Below are positions 729 through 23,700 of a stretch of 34,349 nucleotides of DNA, one piece after another (position 1 is the first letter of the stretch; every line of letters starts with the position of its first letter). The translations under genes and the position numbers were made by a program. Origin of the DNA: Saccoglossus kowalevskii (taxonomy: Eukaryota > Hemichordata > Enteropneusta > Harrimaniidae). The notes below the pieces were generated by a model. It did not search any database. It saw only the letters and a program-made list of their open reading frames with translations, and was not told where the DNA came from. The stretch covers positions 96,568 through 130,916 of the forward strand of contig NW_003144786.1 in NCBI RefSeq assembly GCF_000003605.2, in the 5' to 3' direction.

Positions 729-920
729 CTTTTGTTCTGTAGCGAACTGATTCAGAGGCTTTACTAAGACCGAATTTATTAAGAGCTCGAATCTTGAAAT
801 TGTAGGTTGTGTCTGGTTTGAGATGTGTAATAATATACGTAGTTGTATCGGACGGGATGTTGATGTTTATCCACTGTGAGTATTGAGCATCGACGTCCTC
901 TGTATAATGAACTACGTAAC
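729..920 (-). CDS. Exon 11: FN3-4, C-terminal half
   Basis: The acceptor ATTACATTGTAG and donor GTAATA flank 64 codons, phase 1 to phase 1. The peptide begins GYVVHYTEDVDAQYSQW and includes ITHLKPDTTYNFKIRALNKF followed by GLSKASE, an excellent FN3 C'-G region. The first 17 bases of this exon and its acceptor are the source of the tandem copies upstream. It ends at a donor, so at least one further exon is needed. Confidence 0.88.
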
Positions 921-3900
921 CTACAATGTAATAACAATTGTGTAAATTGATATAGATGTATGCGTGATAATAAAATACGTAACCTACAATGTAATAACAA
1001 TTGTGCAAATTGGTATAGATGTATGCGTGATAATAAACTACGTAACCTACAATGTAATAACAATTGTGCAAATTGATATAGATGTATGCGTGATAATAAA
1101 ATACGTAACCTACAATGTAATAACAATTGTGCAAATTGGTATAGATGTATGCGTGATAATGAACTACGTAACCTACAATGTAATAACAATTGTGCAAATT
1201 AGTATAGATGTATGCGTGATAATAAACTACGTAACCTACAATGTAATAACAATTGTGCGAAGTGGCATGGATGTATGCGTTGTAATGACATACGTAATTG
1301 CCTATTTACCTGTAATGTCTGGATCGAACTGAGAGGGTGCCCTCCATACTAGACTAACACTGCGTGTTTCATCGCCGTTGATAGACACGTCCTCAATAGA
1401 CAGTATATTTGGTGCCAAAGGTGGGCCATCGATTACATCTACAGTACAACACAATAAGAATAAGTTATATCTTTATTATTGGCAATAATCACGTCGTACA
1501 TTTATTTATTATATTCATTTGGTATGTTTCATGTATTTATTTCTTATAATGAAACTGTATCACCCACCTTGAACGCAGGTGATCTGTTCTCCAGACCATT
1601 GTCCATCAGATCCACATGTACGGACCATCTTAGATGCGTCCGCCTCCGAGTGAATATAACCTTCGTCACAAGAATATCGACAGGTACTTCCGACTACACC
1701 GCCATCACATACAGCCACTCCATTTGGCGGATCGGCAAACGGCGGACACGTCAACTCCTTTATGGGTGCTATGAGAACCAACCACGTTTATGGTTACGTG
1801 GAATTGCAGTTACCGGTAGTTAATTACAACCAATCAGATATAGCGCATAACGTGACCGAACATATGATATTATACATGACCAGCTCTCGTGCGATGTATA
1901 AATTACTAAGTACTTATACATTTACATTCCTTATAGATAATTACTTAAAGATCATGCAAATTTCGATAACAAAAATAAGACAAATTGGTGTGTAATATAC
2001 CTGGTAAAATTGGTTGCCCGTCGGTACAGATACGGGCGCAGCCATTATAACAGCACAACTGGCGCCCAGGACAATCGTTATGGTAACTGCACGACTCCAC
2101 GCAGAAGCGAGAGTTGGACATATCTGGACACATCCCGTACTTGATTGGTACTTCCGTGGGTACCGGTGCTGTGGTAATTGGTCAAATGGGGAAAAAGAAA
2201 AACGTCAAAAGGATGCCTTTTACGCCCGCCGTGTTTCGAAACAGAAACATTTAATATATCTACTACGTGATATGTAAATTAAATTATCATATAATTTAAG
2301 TCGCTGGTGGATCAAATAACATTTGTATAGAGGATATTACTGGATGTTAATGATTATTTCCACGCATTATCTATAAATATTTACTTATTATTCATACATT
2401 GTGAATCTAAATTCATTTAATAAATCGCATTGATTAACTATCAAAAATGTTCCATAGTTCAATAGCAGTTATATTTGTTTTTGCATAGGTCCACGCAACC
2501 AATAGTATATGTAATATTAACACTTTCTAAAAACAATCTTAATGGAATGGGAACACAACGTACAATTTACTTCTGAATCAAGGGGTGTTCAAATGGGGGA
2601 TTTGAGAGTTAACCTGAGTACACTAAAAATTAGAAAGAACATATTATAAAAAAAAAAAACAATATATAGTGTGTATCCCCTGAAAAATGTGGACTTTCCT
2701 TCTCGCCAATGACATTCGCCATCTATTCACAGAGGGAAATGCTCCGCTTATCAATGACCTTCGCCAATGATAAAGTTTCAACATATTTTAATTATACGTG
2801 GTTCCACTTTCTGTGGGTACACGTGAGCATTTTTAAACTATTGTAGTTGTCACCGCTATAATCGCCTTAAGATATATCAGTCAATTGTTTACTTATCAAC
2901 AGTACCTGGTGACGTGCTCACGCGTACCATTGACATCGGCCCAACACCGAAGTCGTTTCGTGCTTGAACTTTGATAAAATATACCGTATCAGAAAAAAGA
3001 GCAGTCAGTTCGAGAGACGTCACCGAACTAGACGCTTCCAGCATACTCCATTCTTCCACCGGAGCGTCCATCTCATTCGTCCAGTATACTTCATAGCCTT
3101 GGGAAATAAATGATTGAACTGATATCAGCAATGAATGGCGTATTCAAATTACGTGTATTAATTTATACAGTACAGTATACTAATAAATATAAAATCCTGA
3201 GTTTGAATATTTATGTGTTGAAGGTTATAAAAGTATGGCTTGGATTATGTACAGAAGAATGATAGGAAATTCCCTAGTTTGCACGAAAAGAGACTACACC
3301 CTCCCTCCCTGCCTCCGTCGCTGCCTAGCTACTCCTACAAAAGACACAGTTCGCATTTGGAATCGTCAGTAATGATGACGACATTTGAAGAAAAATATCA
3401 ATTAATATACACGTAAAGATTAACAGAGTGTTACTTTACTTAAATATGCACATATGATTATATACCAAGTATATGCATAGAACAACATTATTCACCTGTT
3501 ATTGGTAGTCCTTCTTCGGGTGATTTCCATTCTATTTTGATAGATTCTGACGTGATGAGCCGAACAACGACGTCAGTGGGCGGTGATGGTACGATATCTC
3601 CGTCTGAAGGCAAAATATAGTTATTACATTTCTCTTTTCTGAGTCCAAGTGCATTTTGAGAACCTTGTACATAATTTGCATATTCACATTTATTTTGCAC
3701 ACATTCACTGTTTGATTCACACTCAATGACTCACTCACTCACGCACGCACGCACTCACTCACTCACTCAGTCACTCACTCACTCACTCACTCACTCACTC
3801 ACCCTCTCACTCACTCACTCGCTCACTCACTCACTCACTGACTCACTCACTCACTTACTCATTCATTCATTCATTCATTCATTCATTCATTCATTCATTC

Positions 3901-6900
3901 ATTCGGATTGAAATATAAAAATTATCGTATACTTCTGACACTGCTCAAATTAACTATAATCGTAAACTTACCGCCGTTCATTGGTGTCGTGTAAGAGAAT
4001 GGTTCCGACTTTGGACTACCGCCTCTCATATTGTATGTCTGGGTAATAAATTTATATGAATGATTTGGCAACAACCCAGTTACCGGAATAATAACTTCAA
4101 CATTGATGTCTACGTCCACTCTAACAATTGGCCAAGATAGATAACTGGAATCAGGCGACGTGTCGTCGGAATAGAATACCATTAACCCTGTGAACAATTA
4201 GTAAAATACGATCTCAACAAATATTATAATAACTTTACCATTCAACAATTAACATCTGTGGGTAATGTATGGTAAGAAAAATACTATAAAGAGAAAAACA
4301 CAATAATAATACTATTAAGCAAAAATTACAATAATAATACTATTAAGGAAAAATTACAAAACAATAGTATAATGGTGAACAATCAAATGTTTTTAAACGT
4401 TACTTTTTGTATATTGTTTGTTTAAGATATTTAACTAAAGAAAACTGTTGTTATACATGTTTATAAAATTGTTTATTCTATCCTGTTTATTTATTATGTT
4501 ACAATCTATATACAACAATTTTCCTTCTTTCTTATAGGTTCACAGCCTAAAATAACGTGGATTTCATTTTCCGCTTTTTTAATTACATTTTGTACATATT
4601 CTAACTTTTCCTTCCACTTTTGGCTTCATTCTTCGTCCAAATTCAATTTCTAGATTATGGTCACCTATTCTGAATTTTTTAATTCGTAATTTATTTCCTC
4701 ACTTTTGCTTATTACTACAATTAACTACTTGATTTGATTTGTTCAGGTCTGTTTATATTCATTTGGTAGTTTACTTTCAATAATTTATGAGAACTGATTG
4801 ATGTTTTTTTTTTATCTCGTATTCATCTTTAGTTTTATTAAATTGGTTCTCCCCCAATATATGTTCAATCTTCTTTTTCCAGTTTGTATTGTTTGTAATG
4901 TTTTTTTTAATGCACAATGTAGTAAATGAATCACTGTCAGTCTGTTTGGTCTATACCAGTATTTGATTTGAGCTTTGTCTGTTTTGAATCTAATTGGGAG
5001 TCTACCAATTTCAACTTGAATGCCCCTGATTGGGGCTACCTTACTTACACCTAAAATAAAACGATAAAAGTAATTACAAATTTGCTCTAAGCTGTTATTG
5101 TCCTTTGTTATTTTGATATTGGAGATATATATTGGAGATATTAAATGATCAAACATTTTTAAACTCAGTGTTACTGAAATATTTTTTTGACTTAGGATTG
5201 TTTGTCGCATAGTTAATAATGATCATTACCTTGTTTTTGACCATTACATGGTTTAGTTTCAAATTTGCCATTTGGATTTAACTACTGTTCCCAGATAGCA
5301 AAATTATCTAACTGCTGTAACTTCTTGATTGTTAAATTTTAGGTTTACATTTTTATCAACGTGTTACTTGTGTTAAAAACCATCGCCTTTGTCTTTTTTA
5401 TATTTACAATCATGCACCATTTTTCACAATATTGATTTAATTTATTCATGCATTTTTGAAGACCTTCCATACTCTTCGCAGTCAAACGCTTTATAAAGTC
5501 TATAAAGCAACTGTATAAACGTTTTATTTTTTACTATTAATTTATTATTAACTGTTCATATCATTTTAGTACAAAAAATGCATCATTTGTGCGTCTGTCT
5601 TTTCTAAATCCAAATTGAAGATCTGTCATAGTGTTATTATACCATTAAATATTGAAAACTGTTATTACATGCCATTAAAATAGAAACATGAAATACGGTT
5701 TCAGTGGCAAAATCCTTGGCTCTTTTAATTTGAAACAAAAAGGTCAAAAGAGACATTGGTGGGGTGCAGTGATGTTTTCCGTACACAATTTACTTGAGAC
5801 GAGAACATACATAAATTCCCCCCTCCAAAAAAACCTCCAGGTCATAATTCAACAAAACGCATTACTTACATGAGCTACTTAAAAAAACATTATCAATTAT
5901 AGTGAAAATATTACTACACTTACTGGCTTGAATTGTCTACAAGGAAGCGAATTCAATTAATTTTATCCAACGTACTTTCTATTGTTAAAGTTTGGTGTGT
6001 GTTTTCATCACACTATCAATACTTTGTCTTATTTCATTACCTGTAGGTTCATATCCTCTTGCACTCGTTACTCTGACAACAACGTCCACGTTCACGATAT
6101 TGTTAACTGAATCTTTGTCACGGACGTCAACGACTACGGGGGAAACTATTGGCGCATACCCGTCTACAAATAAAAGCAAAAATAAACACACATTGTGATT
6201 TTGTAAAAGTATCCGACTCAATTTAATTGTTTAAAAATCTAATATTCATTTTTCTTCACGATCTGGGACAAAGTCATGTGGGTTGTCACCCACCACCGAC
6301 CCGACTATAGCTTGTCGTCGTCGCTAAGGGCGTAGCTCATGCGAATTTCTCAAGTTTGCTCACCGCCTTCCATCATCGTTGTTGCGTACACGGGGTCGCA
6401 CTGTAATCCAACTCCTTCATCGTTATGAGCTGCAATTTTAAACTCATAACGCGCGAACGACTGGAGCCCTTTTATGGTGACTTCTTGTTGATCGACCTCT
6501 ACGTTTGTTATTCTGAAATAAAACCAGAAGTTATTCAAGTTTAATGGTACGCGTACCATGATGGCTCTACCAAAGGTCAAGATTCAGGTACGGTGTTTGG
6601 ATATATGAAGAAAATACATCAATAAAACATATTGTTTAATGTAATAAGCATATGGTTTCTTCCAGTAAACACGATTCACTTCACATGAGTGAGTAGGCCG
6701 TAATTTCAGAATATAGCCCATCTGGCAATATGTGCTTTCTAAAAAAAACATAATATAAAACTGTAATTAGAGGGGAGGCAAAGGGGGTAGCTGGTACGGT
6801 TTTACGGGAAATAAAAAGTTTTTTTTTACAATTTACAAGGAAAAAAAGACGTTTTTACAGTTTACAGTGTTAAAAAATGGAACATTGAATGGTCCGAAGA

Positions 6901-11779: not shown

Positions 11780-14700
11780 CTGTGAAGAAATCAAACAAAA
11801 TATAAATAAAATATTACAAACATAATCATCAGAATTTTGAGCGAAAACTAGTTTGTATAAAACTTATTTGTAATTTGCATACCTCAGCCATGAATGGACG
11901 TTTCTTGCGTGTATGTTCAAGACATTTCAGTGCAATTAGATACAGTTCTGTTATTGACTCCTCATTCCAGTCATTCATATTTGAATCAACGATGCTAATA
12001 AAGTCTTCATCTGCATCACATTCATCTTCGACGTGCGAACATAAATCACAACTTTTTCGGCTTTCATCAAACACAGGTAACCCAGTCATTATTTCAAGAA
12101 GAACCTGAAATCAGAAACAGAGTTAAATACAGTTATAAAAATTCAAGTCAACTATTCGACAACAATCCAACAAGCATAAGTAATGTATCTTATTGAAATC
12201 AACCTTGGCATAAAAATGAGATTAGCCAAGAATTTTTTCTTATTTGCATAAATTAATATTCATGAGCAGTGAAAAAACATCTTTTGAGTCAGCTGGGGCA
12301 AAATACATTCCAAAATCCAATGATGTAGATCTAAAATGTCTGATTCTGTCAGTAAGTAGTCGAAAAAATTGTGAAATAGTGTTTTTTAAACAAGCAATGT
12401 CTCGGCTGAGATAGCTCCGCTGTTAGAAAAGCATATTTCAATTAAAGAACTGAAGATATCATTAGAAAATCTGAAAGAGGTCTATCTGAGGTACTTACAT
12501 GTATAACATCAAAGTAATCGGATTTGCGGGTTTTAACAAGAAGTCAAAAATATAACTTTTTACCAAAAATAACAGAGAATTAGAGAATTGAAGATATCAT
12601 ACTGAAATGCACAAATCTGAGAGAAGTCTGCCCAAGGTACATATATACCAAGTATCAAAACAATAACAATTGTAGTTTTCAAGAGAAGTCAAATAAGTAA
12701 AAAGTTGACACAGACGACGACAGACAATCACTCATATGATAAGCTCCGCTCAACAAAGTCGACTACGGAGCTAAAAAGGGTTTTAATCACCAGAACGAAA
12801 TGCTGATTGACTAAAAACATTTCATCCAGGTGTTAATCCCATCCATGCACAAGAGCATGTCATTCAAACCGTTTTGTGCTGAGAATACACTGTGAGCTGT
12901 GCTTGTAGTTTGAGATGGTGAGAAATAGATGTCATTTATCAGCATTAATCTTACCACTCCATAACTGTAAGTATCCTGTTTTGGCGTTATAGTACCGCTG
13001 AAGGCTTCTTTTGGCATATACGGAGAAGTGCCGAAAACTGTTGACGTTCTAGTTATGCTGTGGCCAATTTCAGGTCCAGGTCGAATTAATCCGAAGTCTC
13101 CTACCTTGGCTACAAAGTTCTCATCTAACAAAACATTTGCACTGCAATGAAAGAAAAATAATGTTAATCAAAGAAAACTTAGAAAGAACTCCCGTGTGCT
13201 TAGAGTATTGAAGACACAATACAAATTAATTCAAAATTACTTGTACCTGAGATATTGATGGAAAAGCTGAAAACTAATTAATATGTAAAATTATGAATTC
13301 TTATGATGATTAGAGAATTAATTTGAACTAATTTTAACCCAAAATTAATCAATAAAAATTAATTAATAAGCATAAATATTTACCAAAAACTAATTGGGTC
13401 TCTGCATAGTTCTAGATTCATTGAAATGTGATGATGAGTACTCTTTAAACGTTTAATTAAAATCCAATTTGTGGTTCTTTATATATCAGTGGAACATTCA
13501 TGAACAAAAATTAACTAATTATGCAAATTAGGTAATTAATATCCACAATTATTTACCCTAAAACTAATCAGGTCTCTGCATAGTCCCAGAATATCTTTGT
13601 AGCATGTTTCATTGAAATATGATGATTAGTACGTGAGATATCGAGCAAAAAGCTGAAAATTAACTAAGTATGCTAATAAGGTAATTAATATGCACAAATA
13701 TTTACCCAAAAACTAATCAGGGGTCTGCACAATCCTTAAGTAACTATGTACCAAGTTTCATTGAAATGTGATAATTACTACTTGAAATATCAAAAGCTGA
13801 AAACTAATTAATTATGCAAATTAGGTAATTAATATCTATAGATATTAACCTAAAAACTATCAGGTCTGTGCAGTGTCCTATGATATCTATGTATCAACTT
13901 TCATTGAAATGTTATGATTACTACTTGAAATATCAAAAGCTGAAAATTAATTAATTATGCAAATTAGGTAATTAAAATGTACTGATATTACCCTAAAAAC
14001 TATCAGGTTTGTGCAGTGTCCTATGACATCTATGTACCAAGTTTTATTGAAATGTGATGATTAGTACTTGAGATATCAGTGGAAAAGCCGAAAATTGATT
14101 AATCATTATGCAAATTAGGTAATTAGTATTGCACAAATTTTTACCCAAAACTAATCAAATCTACGCATTAGTATGGAGCATCTATGTGCTAAGTTTCATC
14201 AAAATCCAATGAGTGGTTTTTCAGATAACAGTGGAACAGTCATAGAACAGCTAAAAATCAGCTAATTATCATGCAAATTAGGTAATTAATATGCATGGCT
14301 TTTTACCAAAACTTAATCAAATCTGCGCATTGGCCCAGAGCATCTATGCACCAAGTTTCATCAAAAATCAATGTATGGTTCTTGAGATATCAGTGGAACA
14401 CACACACACGCACGCACGCACACACGCACACACACACATACAGACACACTAACGTCAAAGACTCCCATTGTGTGCTTTGCACAAGGGAGTCAAAAATGCG
14501 ATTTCAATTCATATACATAGACTTGTTATCATCTAAGTGTGACGTTACGCTGTGGTGATATGCATTTCATAATTTCCATATCAATTTATGTGTACATGTG
14601 ATATGGTCCTGGACTACTTTTTAAACTTACACGATCATGTTTAGCGCTACTCTAAGCAAGTTGAAAATGTTTTGAAATGTACACAACAAAAAAGATGCAT

Positions 14701-20700: not shown

Positions 20701-23700
20701 ATACAATACCGAAAGCCCCTTCTCCGATGAAGTTACCGCCATCCTCCTGTTTACTTATGTTAAAGCCATCTGTCATATGCGATAGATCAGTATAGGAGAG
20801 TTCTTTATCTGTAGGTTTAGAATACATGTAGGTACTTAATTGACATAAATTCCTTAAACATTTTCCTGGAAAGACCAAGTAAGGATTGCTCGTCTTTCCA
20901 GGCATCTTTGGAATAATTTCACAAATGGCTTGTATTTAAACATTTTTTATGGTAGCAAAAGTAAAACATAGCAGGTCAATTTGCATACAACATATGCATA
21001 TGCATATGTTAATTTTTCATTAATACATAAAATATTTGAATTAACCATATTAATTCTTTCAACTTTTAACAAAATTTTCACGAAAAAATTAGGTTCATTT
21101 GGTGTCAACTCACCCGACAGGTTATAGAGAAATGCATAAAAATGATTTAGCTTGACTGGAAAAACAATGACACCCAAAGGATTAATAAAGTTAGATCAAT
21201 AAGTTGTATTATCCCAAGTTTCCACATTACCTACCTGGAGCAACTTCTTGTAATGTCATCCTTATTTCTGCAGTTTTACCCGAATGTTCAACAGATGTGT
21301 CCACCATTGAAACTAACGGCGCAGGGGAGTCAGTGTTACCAGATCCAAGCATCTCAGATACCTTAGAATCTGTTGTAGTAATTTTTACCTCCTTCATTTT
21401 CTCTGTGATGTCCTTCAAGTTATCAGCCCGATTACCACTGGTTGTATCACTGGGAAAATCTCTTGGTATGTCATTCTTTTGCATACTTGAAGATGGTTTA
21501 GACAATTTTGATGGATTCTCAATGACACTTTTACTTGAAGGTTTATCATTTGACAAGTTCATTGATGGTTTAGATTCATTTGTGTGAGTAATGGTTGATG
21601 ATGACAATGAAGTTGACTCTGCTGAAGATAAAGTACTTGAAGACTGTACTTGTGATTGTAAAGATTGTACTTGAGACACTGGTTGTTGGATTTTAGTAAA
21701 TGCATTATCCCAACTATCCTCGCTTGAACCACGGTCGCCACCACCATCACCATAACGTCTAGTAGCATTCGGTGCCCTTGTCTCTTGTTGTTGAGTCTTT
21801 TTTTGGTGAACATAGTCTGCAAGAGAACATAGACTACTGAAATACAAATCTTGAATATTTGTCCATGACTTTTATGTGAAGTAGAATTATCAAAAGCTAG
21901 GGCAGTGAGGTAGAGTTATCAAAAGATAGAGCAGTGAAGTAGAGTTATCAAAAGCTAGAGCAGTGAAGTAGAGTTATCAAAAGCTAGAGCAGTGAAGTAG
22001 AGTTATCAAAAGCTAGAGCAGTGAAGTAGAGTTATCAAAAGCTAGAGCAGTGAAGTAGAGTTATCAAAAGCTAGAGCAGTGAAGTAGAGTTATCAAAAGC
22101 TAGAGCAGTGAAGTAGAGTTATCAAAAGCTAGAGCAGTGAAGTAGAGTTATCAAAAGCTAGAGCAGTGAAGTAGAGTTATCAAAAGCTAGAGCAGTGAAG
22201 TAGAGTTATCAAAAGCTAGAGCAGTGAAGTAGAGTTACCAAAAAGCTAGAGAAGTGAGGCAGAGGCAGAGTTAACAAAAGATAGAGCAAAGAGCAAGTAT
22301 TTTCAAAAGCTAAGAGCAGTGAGGGAGCATAACTAATACATAACTATTACAACCTTGCCTCTTGAGAACCTAGATTTAACAAGTCATTGGGAAAATGTTA
22401 TTCATGCCAAAAATAATAAAAAGCATAGTTAGTAATTGAGATTGAATAATTGACTGTTCAAATATCAAAAGAAAGTAGATGCATTAAATTACTCTTCCGA
22501 AATCATAATATATGGTCAGAAATTAAACAGCATATGCTATTCATGCATTTTGTCTATCTAAACTGAATTCCTGTTATCCAGGCTCATGTACAGAGAAATA
22601 GTAGTATGGTCAAAAAGCAAGATTGCAGGCAGTCAGTCAACCTTTGTTCGGTTGTGAAACTAATTATCATGGACATGTATCTTAACATGTATAATTTGAA
22701 GAGAATGTCAACGATACATTTAGAAATATGAAATCAATCAGTCTAGCTGAAGATAACAATAATAATGGTATTCACTAGAATGAGAAAAATTTAGTTATCA
22801 ACACTAAATGACTTAATTAATCCAATAGAGAAAGGAATCAAATGAATCTGACAGCGATCCATCTAAGGTACTTTTCAAATAAAATATCAGAACAATTGGG
22901 TAGGCGGTTTTCAAAAAGAAGACAGAAAATACCAAAAATGAAAAAATATTCACTAAAATTAACGTTATCAAGATCAACAAATCTGAGATTTCAATCCAAA
23001 GCACCTAGATATAAAATATCAAGGCAATTGGGCAAGTTGTTTTCAATAAGAAAATAGCAGATTTTACCAAAATTAACAGAAATATTGACTAAAATTAGGG
23101 AATAGAGGGTAGATAAGGAAGGAAATATATTTAAAGTTAACTCAAGTTTTCCAAAATGGGCAGGATACAGGCAAGCTAGGAAAGAAAACTTTAAAAAAGG
23201 TTTGGATATATGTTTATAACAGCAGACCGCTCACTTTGTTTTCTGGATAATCGGCTTTGAGTGCAAACAATAAATATTGACCTAATTTGCATAAGTAGGC
23301 CCTGTCTGCCTTTGTGATCATCAATTATTATCAGAATTATTATTAGAAATGAAGAAAAGGAAGTATAAAATAGCCATGGAAACACAAGAGAAATGCATAA
23401 ATATGTTTAAAAGAACACGAATCATATGTAAAAAAAAATACAGTCTCAAATTATCACCACTCAGTGACGATGCAAAGTTTATCTACCACCAAGTGCATGT
23501 AGCCCAGACAGTGAAGATCCTGAAGAAGCTCCAAGAAGAGCATCAGAAAAAAAATTATCGTCACATGGTACTCACGGAAGTGACGATGATGAAATGGCTG
23601 ACATAGATGGATCGCTGCGACTGATCGATCTTGATATTTTAAATAGCAAACTGTTTTGGCGATCATGGTGCTCAAGCTGTAATGATAGGCATTGCACAGA

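Follow-up and report, generated by a model that had tools for sequence, protein, structure and literature searches.

A minisatellite that multiplies a 3' splice acceptor in an FN3-splitting intron of Saccoglossus kowalevskii

Splice-site repeats in other genes and the hemichordate locus

The minisatellite of the human IFI6 gene (G1P3, 6-16) reportedly has a 12-nt unit that keeps the reading frame. It gives multiple splice donors (Turri et al., 1995, NAR 23:1854, as cited in PMC4526556), and the account of this repeat in PMC4526556 has downstream repeat units serving as donors, which results in three mRNA species. Another donor-side array is the VNTR in intron 18 of ABCA7, for which the relevant passage of PMC5954066 describes 25-bp units that start with the exon 18 donor, a polymorphic length, and retention of one unit in mRNA. 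In potato RdRp, according to the passage on this gene in PMC4974935, a tandem duplication spanning an intron's 3' end and the beginning of the exon after it copied the putative branch site, the tract, and the acceptor. Where alternative 3' splice sites are separated by more than 12-20 nt, each usually comes with a tract and a branch point of its own, as stated in part of PMC9225289.

We analyzed a stretch of 34,349 nt from the genome of S. kowalevskii (hereafter, the window). An intron on its minus strand contains a minisatellite whose tandem unit includes the splice site of the adjoining exon, and there are six such units. The multiplied site is a 3' acceptor, not a 5' donor as in IFI6 and ABCA7. 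As in the excerpted account of IFI6, minisatellite units carry a splice site, but there a donor is multiplied and its use is reported, whereas here 63-nt units multiply an acceptor plus exon start, and use of the extra copies is a prediction. As in the ABCA7 passage, the array lies directly at an exon border and its units carry the splice site. The ABCA7 array, however, ranges from about 12 to 427 units, compared with the present six, and lies on the donor side, where its 25-nt unit shifts the frame and leads to a premature stop; the present array lies on the acceptor side, and its 63-nt unit stays in frame. The duplication resembles that described for potato RdRp in crossing an acceptor and taking in the intron end and exon start, whereas the potato event, in that description, is a single duplication that led to a new intron with a cryptic donor, and comprises neither an array nor a group of acceptors in competition. 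In NAGNAG tandem acceptors, as treated in part of PMC3250501, 3' splice sites likewise compete without changing the frame, at a spacing of 3 nt versus 63 nt here.

No acceptor-multiplying minisatellite was among the matches listed in our literature searches, most subscription papers lying outside the searched library. Bovine RTEL (PMC1831785), in the part concerned, was a false lead as a comparable system, and the matching passages of PMC2572611 and PMC2915984 merely cite the IFI6 paper. With donor-side arrays already known in IFI6 and ABCA7, the present locus is an acceptor-side variant of minisatellite-multiplied splice sites.

Anatomy of the array and its gene

TRF delimited the array at 904-1280, with a period of 63, 6.0 copies, 94% matches, and 0% indels. 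The intron (1309-921, minus strand) has 11 + 6 x 63 = 389 nt and consists of an 11-nt donor stub followed by six units (Table 1). A 25-mer over the acceptor and exon start (TTGTTATTACATTGTAG/GTTACGTA; here and below a slash marks the splice junction) occurs six times on the minus strand without mismatches and 63 nt apart, and no copy of it with up to three mismatches occurred in 100 dinucleotide shuffles. The positions of the 25-mer confirm that 1236, 1173, 1110, 1047, 984, and 921 are the last intron bases, as an earlier sequence-only reading had proposed, and the shortest intron, via acceptor 1236, is indeed 74 nt long. All six acceptors share 22 intron and 8 exon bases identically, copy 0 included, its final 22 bases being those of the other units. 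Every array junction reads AG/GT.

That reading had also described a 63-bp unit bearing the acceptor and the first 17 bases of the exon. The period and the acceptor hold for all units, but a full 17-base match is confined to unit 2, with 16 bases matching in units 1 and 4, 15 in units 3 and 5, and 13 in copy 0. Its count of five inter-acceptor units is right for the five young units and omits the diverged copy 0, which occupies the stretch before 1236. Pairwise differences number one to four among units 1-5 and 9-11 for copy 0. Elsewhere in the window, the array unit gave only 11-16-nt matches at chance level, and one search of the 572-Mb, 4,830-contig assembly gave one match, the window itself. 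The exact junction 22-mer had no match in IMG/VR and none in GTDB contigs, as expected for animal sequence.

A second AG lies nine bases past the acceptor (GTTACGTAG) in units 1, 2, and 4 and in the exon (1227-1228, 1164-1165, 1038-1039, and 912-913, minus strand). If this AG served as acceptor, three codons would be dropped in frame; G9T abolishes it in units 3 and 5.

Table 1. Features of the array-bearing intron, its flanking exons, and the comparison introns (window coordinates).
Feature	Position	Strand	Remarks
FN3 N-terminal half exon	1438-1310	minus	129 nt; ends ...DPDITG; phase 1 donor CAG/GTAAAT
Donor stub	1299-1309	minus	Sole 11 intron bases outside the array
Copy 0	1236-1298	minus	Diverged, 9/63 differences from unit 2; ends in acceptor 1236
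Unit 1	1173-1235	minus	Ends in acceptor 1173; private C35T, giving TACTAAT
Unit 2	1110-1172	minus	Ends in acceptor 1110; only unit with 17/17 exon-start match
Unit 3	1047-1109	minus	Ends in acceptor 1047; G9T and C34T in common with unit 5
Unit 4	984-1046	minus	Ends in acceptor 984
Unit 5	921-983	minus	Ends in acceptor 921; private G41A, giving TTTAC
FN3 C-terminal half exon	920-729	minus	192 nt; phase 1; donor AAG/GTAATA
Comparison intron, another FN3	3098-3495	minus	398 nt; same ITG/Y position and phase; fn3 51.1 bits
Comparison intron, third FN3-like unit	4188-6040	minus	1,853 nt; same TG/ position and phase; joined unit 18.2 bits (fn3 cut-off 25)

The two half exons, when joined, matched Pfam fn3 (PF00041) with 57.3 bits (cut-off 25) over profile positions 4-81. 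A PDB search found solved FN3 relatives for the joined-exon domain, Anosmin 1 among them. Anosmin 1 has WAP and FN3 domains, and the present gene, which codes for a protein of cell-surface type, also encodes WAP (40.9 bits) and Sushi (39.1 bits) domains within window positions 1568-2165 on the minus strand.

Several features were observed in the neighborhood. Upstream of the FN3 gene, window positions 12811-13131 (minus strand) hold a fragment of a protein kinase gene, which matched PK_Tyr_Ser-Thr with 24.8 bits (cut-off 23.1) and Pkinase with 28.0 bits, below its cut-off of 31.7; a frame of kinase-like appearance at 11829-12110 gave no meaningful Pfam match. A 29-bp minisatellite at 21876-22264 on the minus strand (13.4 copies, 96% matches) looks intronic. 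It stops about 60 nt short of, and does not include, the likely acceptor (TCTTGCAG, 21817) that belongs to the open frame 21227-21847. Half exons of Cu/Zn superoxide dismutase lie on the minus strand in L002 (687-1131) and L003, to the left of the window (contig 78500-89130). The two L002 exons tested scored 53.8 and 36.2 bits, and the similar peptides of L003 were judged by eye only; the arrangement points to a multi-domain or tandem SOD gene close to the FN3 gene. Immediately to the left of the window, 7,033 consecutive bases are N (L002 1536-8568), so that downstream exons of the FN3 gene are unreadable there.

Origin of the array and choice among its acceptors

The intron position is common to other parts of the gene. 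Two of the three other FN3-like units are split at the same site and in the same phase, and the FN3-like exon near 7684-7502, read by eye, is seemingly not split at the TG/ site. The 63-nt unit is absent from both comparison introns (3098-3495 and 4188-6040). Because two of the three units share the site and phase, the intron probably predates the array, and the same fact argues against gain of the intron by tandem duplication.

We favor, with slightly better than even confidence, a history in which a duplication crossed the acceptor of this older intron, followed by leaky use of six competing acceptors and tolerated growth of the array. A tandem duplication across the 3' splice site of the older FN3-splitting intron would have included some 46 nt of intronic and some 17 nt of exonic sequence. 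We infer that the exon was the source of these 17 nt, the part that codes for the FN3 strand-C motif. The array would then have expanded to its six units, some of this growth probably occurring two units at a time, as suggested by units 3 and 5, which share two variants and differ by one base. Acceptor 921 would be the inherited one; it gives an intact FN3 domain and is expected to account for a large share of the mRNA. At least one upstream acceptor would be used at 1% or more, above all 1173, which would add 84 residues in frame. That this growth was tolerated would be explained by a unit that, by chance, has a length divisible by three and contains no stop. Most likely the array is tolerated rather than selected, and any function of it is probably incidental.

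As background, we ran TRF (period 15-150, at least four copies) on 20 pieces of 10 kb sampled at regular distances along the same contig, leaving out the 116,716 of 200,000 bases that were N. Five rows were obtained, two of them overlapping, which makes four arrays; these cover 4,119 of 83,284 known bases, mostly through one 2.8-kb array. In this small, one-contig sample such arrays occur roughly every 20 kb, and at that density it would not be surprising for one to lie across some splice site in a genome of this size.

Locally identical acceptors could still differ in their branch sites, for which YTNAY is the motif. A YTNAY with its A 18-40 nt before the exon was found for two of the six acceptors, 1173 and 921. 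Before 1173 it is CTAAT within TACTAAT, with the branch-like A 27 nt before the exon; before 921 it is TTTAC, with the branch-like A at 23 nt. Both in-range motifs stem from transitions private to their units, and 3 of the 63 possible unit transitions would create one. Copies 1-5 also contain YTNAY sites farther upstream, at 51 nt from the exon. Among three control acceptors of the same gene, one had no YTNAY in the 18-40 nt range. A crude U2-pairing score based on duplex energy did not single out 1173 and 921 and gave its best value before 1236; in this analysis the distances for control acceptor 3098 are one too small. Candidate branch sites may thus differ between the acceptors by their motifs, an argument made post hoc.

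Proximity may also guide the choice, although the data set behind the proximity rules is presumably human and the rules may not carry over to other species. According to the relevant parts of PMC9225289, when 3' splice sites are similar in strength, the upstream one is strongly preferred if the flanking introns are shorter than 250 nt and less so if they are longer; in its transcriptome-wide data, a short upstream combined with a long downstream intron acts like the short class; and exon definition favors the 3' site nearest the donor of the exon. At this locus the two proximity rules would pull in opposite directions, since the intron would measure 74, 137, or 200 nt with acceptor 1236, 1173, or 1110 and 389 nt with 921.

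If exon definition prevailed, or if exon enhancers lay past base 17, acceptor 921 alone would be used and the array would be an inert passenger within an ordinary intron. The lengths fit this reading: the exon has 192 nt from 921 and 255-507 nt from the upstream acceptors, and the 389-nt intron is about as long as its 398-nt sister. The protein profile points the same way. With inserts of one and five units, two of the five possible lengths, the fn3 scores were 48.0 and 49.2 bits and the match shrank from profile positions 4-81 to 29-81, so that among the scanned products that of 921 is the only one with an uninterrupted match. The identity of the six acceptors over 22 intron and 8 exon bases argues against silent upstream sites, as do the 74- and 137-nt introns, which belong to the class favoring upstream sites. 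We regard exclusive use of 921 as possible but rather unlikely. Hiding of the upstream acceptors by RNA structure was also considered and rejected; the fold of the intron is not more stable than that of shuffled sequence (z 0.78; at least equal stability in 75 of 100 shuffles).

A more elaborate reading would have slippage of the array and the private branch-site mutations before 1173 and 921 act together, with six locally identical acceptors competing in one natural intron and those mutations deciding which are used, to write in-frame steps of 21 residues into the FN3 domain that differ between alleles. This we consider improbable.

Reading frame, protein product, and meaning

The joined exons are open with each of the six acceptors, with inserts of 0, 21, 42, 63, 84, or 105 residues, so the earlier claim that any acceptor could be used without a frameshift, adding 0-105 residues, is borne out; that any of them could be chosen follows from their identical local sequence. 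Of the earlier interpretation, the architecture, the period, the frame, and the competing acceptors stand, which supports it in part; upstream acceptor use, allelic differences in copy number, and protein diversity are predictions. The phrase 'always in frame' is correct as a fact; the weight placed on it is not, an open frame being common both in shuffles and in window 46-mers. After shuffling of the 46-nt intronic part, the exon frame was still open in 66% of 20,000 trials; when real window 46-mers took its place, 2,733 of 6,842 left the frame open; and an array of unit 2 is stop-free in four of six frames. Including one third for a length divisible by three, the chance of an open frame is about 13-22%. 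The open frame is unremarkable and likely to arise by chance, as 66% of shuffles and four of six array frames are open as well.

The insertion point lies at the B-C turn, or the start of strand C, in the FN3 topology from which the strand names are taken (ITG/YVVHY). The sequence-only reading had placed it in the C-C' region. The C-C' loop is an equally valid description because every unit starts with a copy of the YVVHY-type motif; in units 1-5 the opening residues are GYVVHY-like, with slight changes from unit to unit. In principle, either the first or the last copy of strand C might serve in the fold.

Selection might have kept the frame so that allelic and splicing variants of the FN3 domain result. 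In line with this, all six isoforms are open, the strand-C-like motif recurs in units 1-5, and the acceptor block is conserved even in the diverged copy 0: of the 13 columns that vary among the six copies, none lies in the last 22 positions (P = 0.0017 for such a run at this end, P = 0.033 for one at any position). When copy 0 is left out, the invariance of the block is not significant (P = 0.10 at that end, P = 0.32 anywhere). Against selection, an open frame is expected in 40-66%, and both scanned inserts interrupt the FN3 profile. Units 1-5 have five variable columns, and because three of these change an amino acid and two are silent, no protein-level constraint is visible among the young units. 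A selected diversity device is very unlikely.

We think even less of an intron gain by exonic duplication, in which exon codons duplicated in frame long ago would have become the intronic unit. Outside the 17 nt in common, the unit weakly resembles the exon in register (17/46, P = 0.035, ungapped), and the sequence around the donor, ACATTACAG/GT, is similar to that at the unit junction, ACATTGTAG/GT. The signal is weak and depends on the test, with P = 0.005-0.12 in global alignment according to scoring and P = 0.75 in local alignment; 102 of 4,887 real window 46-mers score as well. The intron site common to two other FN3-like units also indicates that the intron was probably there before. We rejected this candidate.

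Donor sites were scored by matches to the nine positions of the donor consensus. Recursive or stepwise removal of the array, with each AG/GT acting as both acceptor and donor, would fit the uniform junctions and has a partial parallel in the potato duplication across an acceptor, described in part of PMC4974935, which made a new intron via a cryptic donor in the duplicated exon part, but it is the least likely reading of all, the junction matching as donor (TAG/GTTACG) at 5/9 positions against 7-8 for six donors of the gene, and the best donor-like site within the intron at 6/9.

Competing-splice-site constructs are a classical test of which site the spliceosome picks. One such construct study is referred to in the discussion of PMC9225289. 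The present locus is a natural construct of this kind, in which six copies with equal acceptor sequence and differing branch-site candidates would make usage readable from ordinary RNA-seq. If the upstream acceptors are used, the array would be the acceptor-side counterpart of the donor arrays of IFI6 and ABCA7, and it would show one way for a repeat to insert blocks in frame into a domain of extracellular type.
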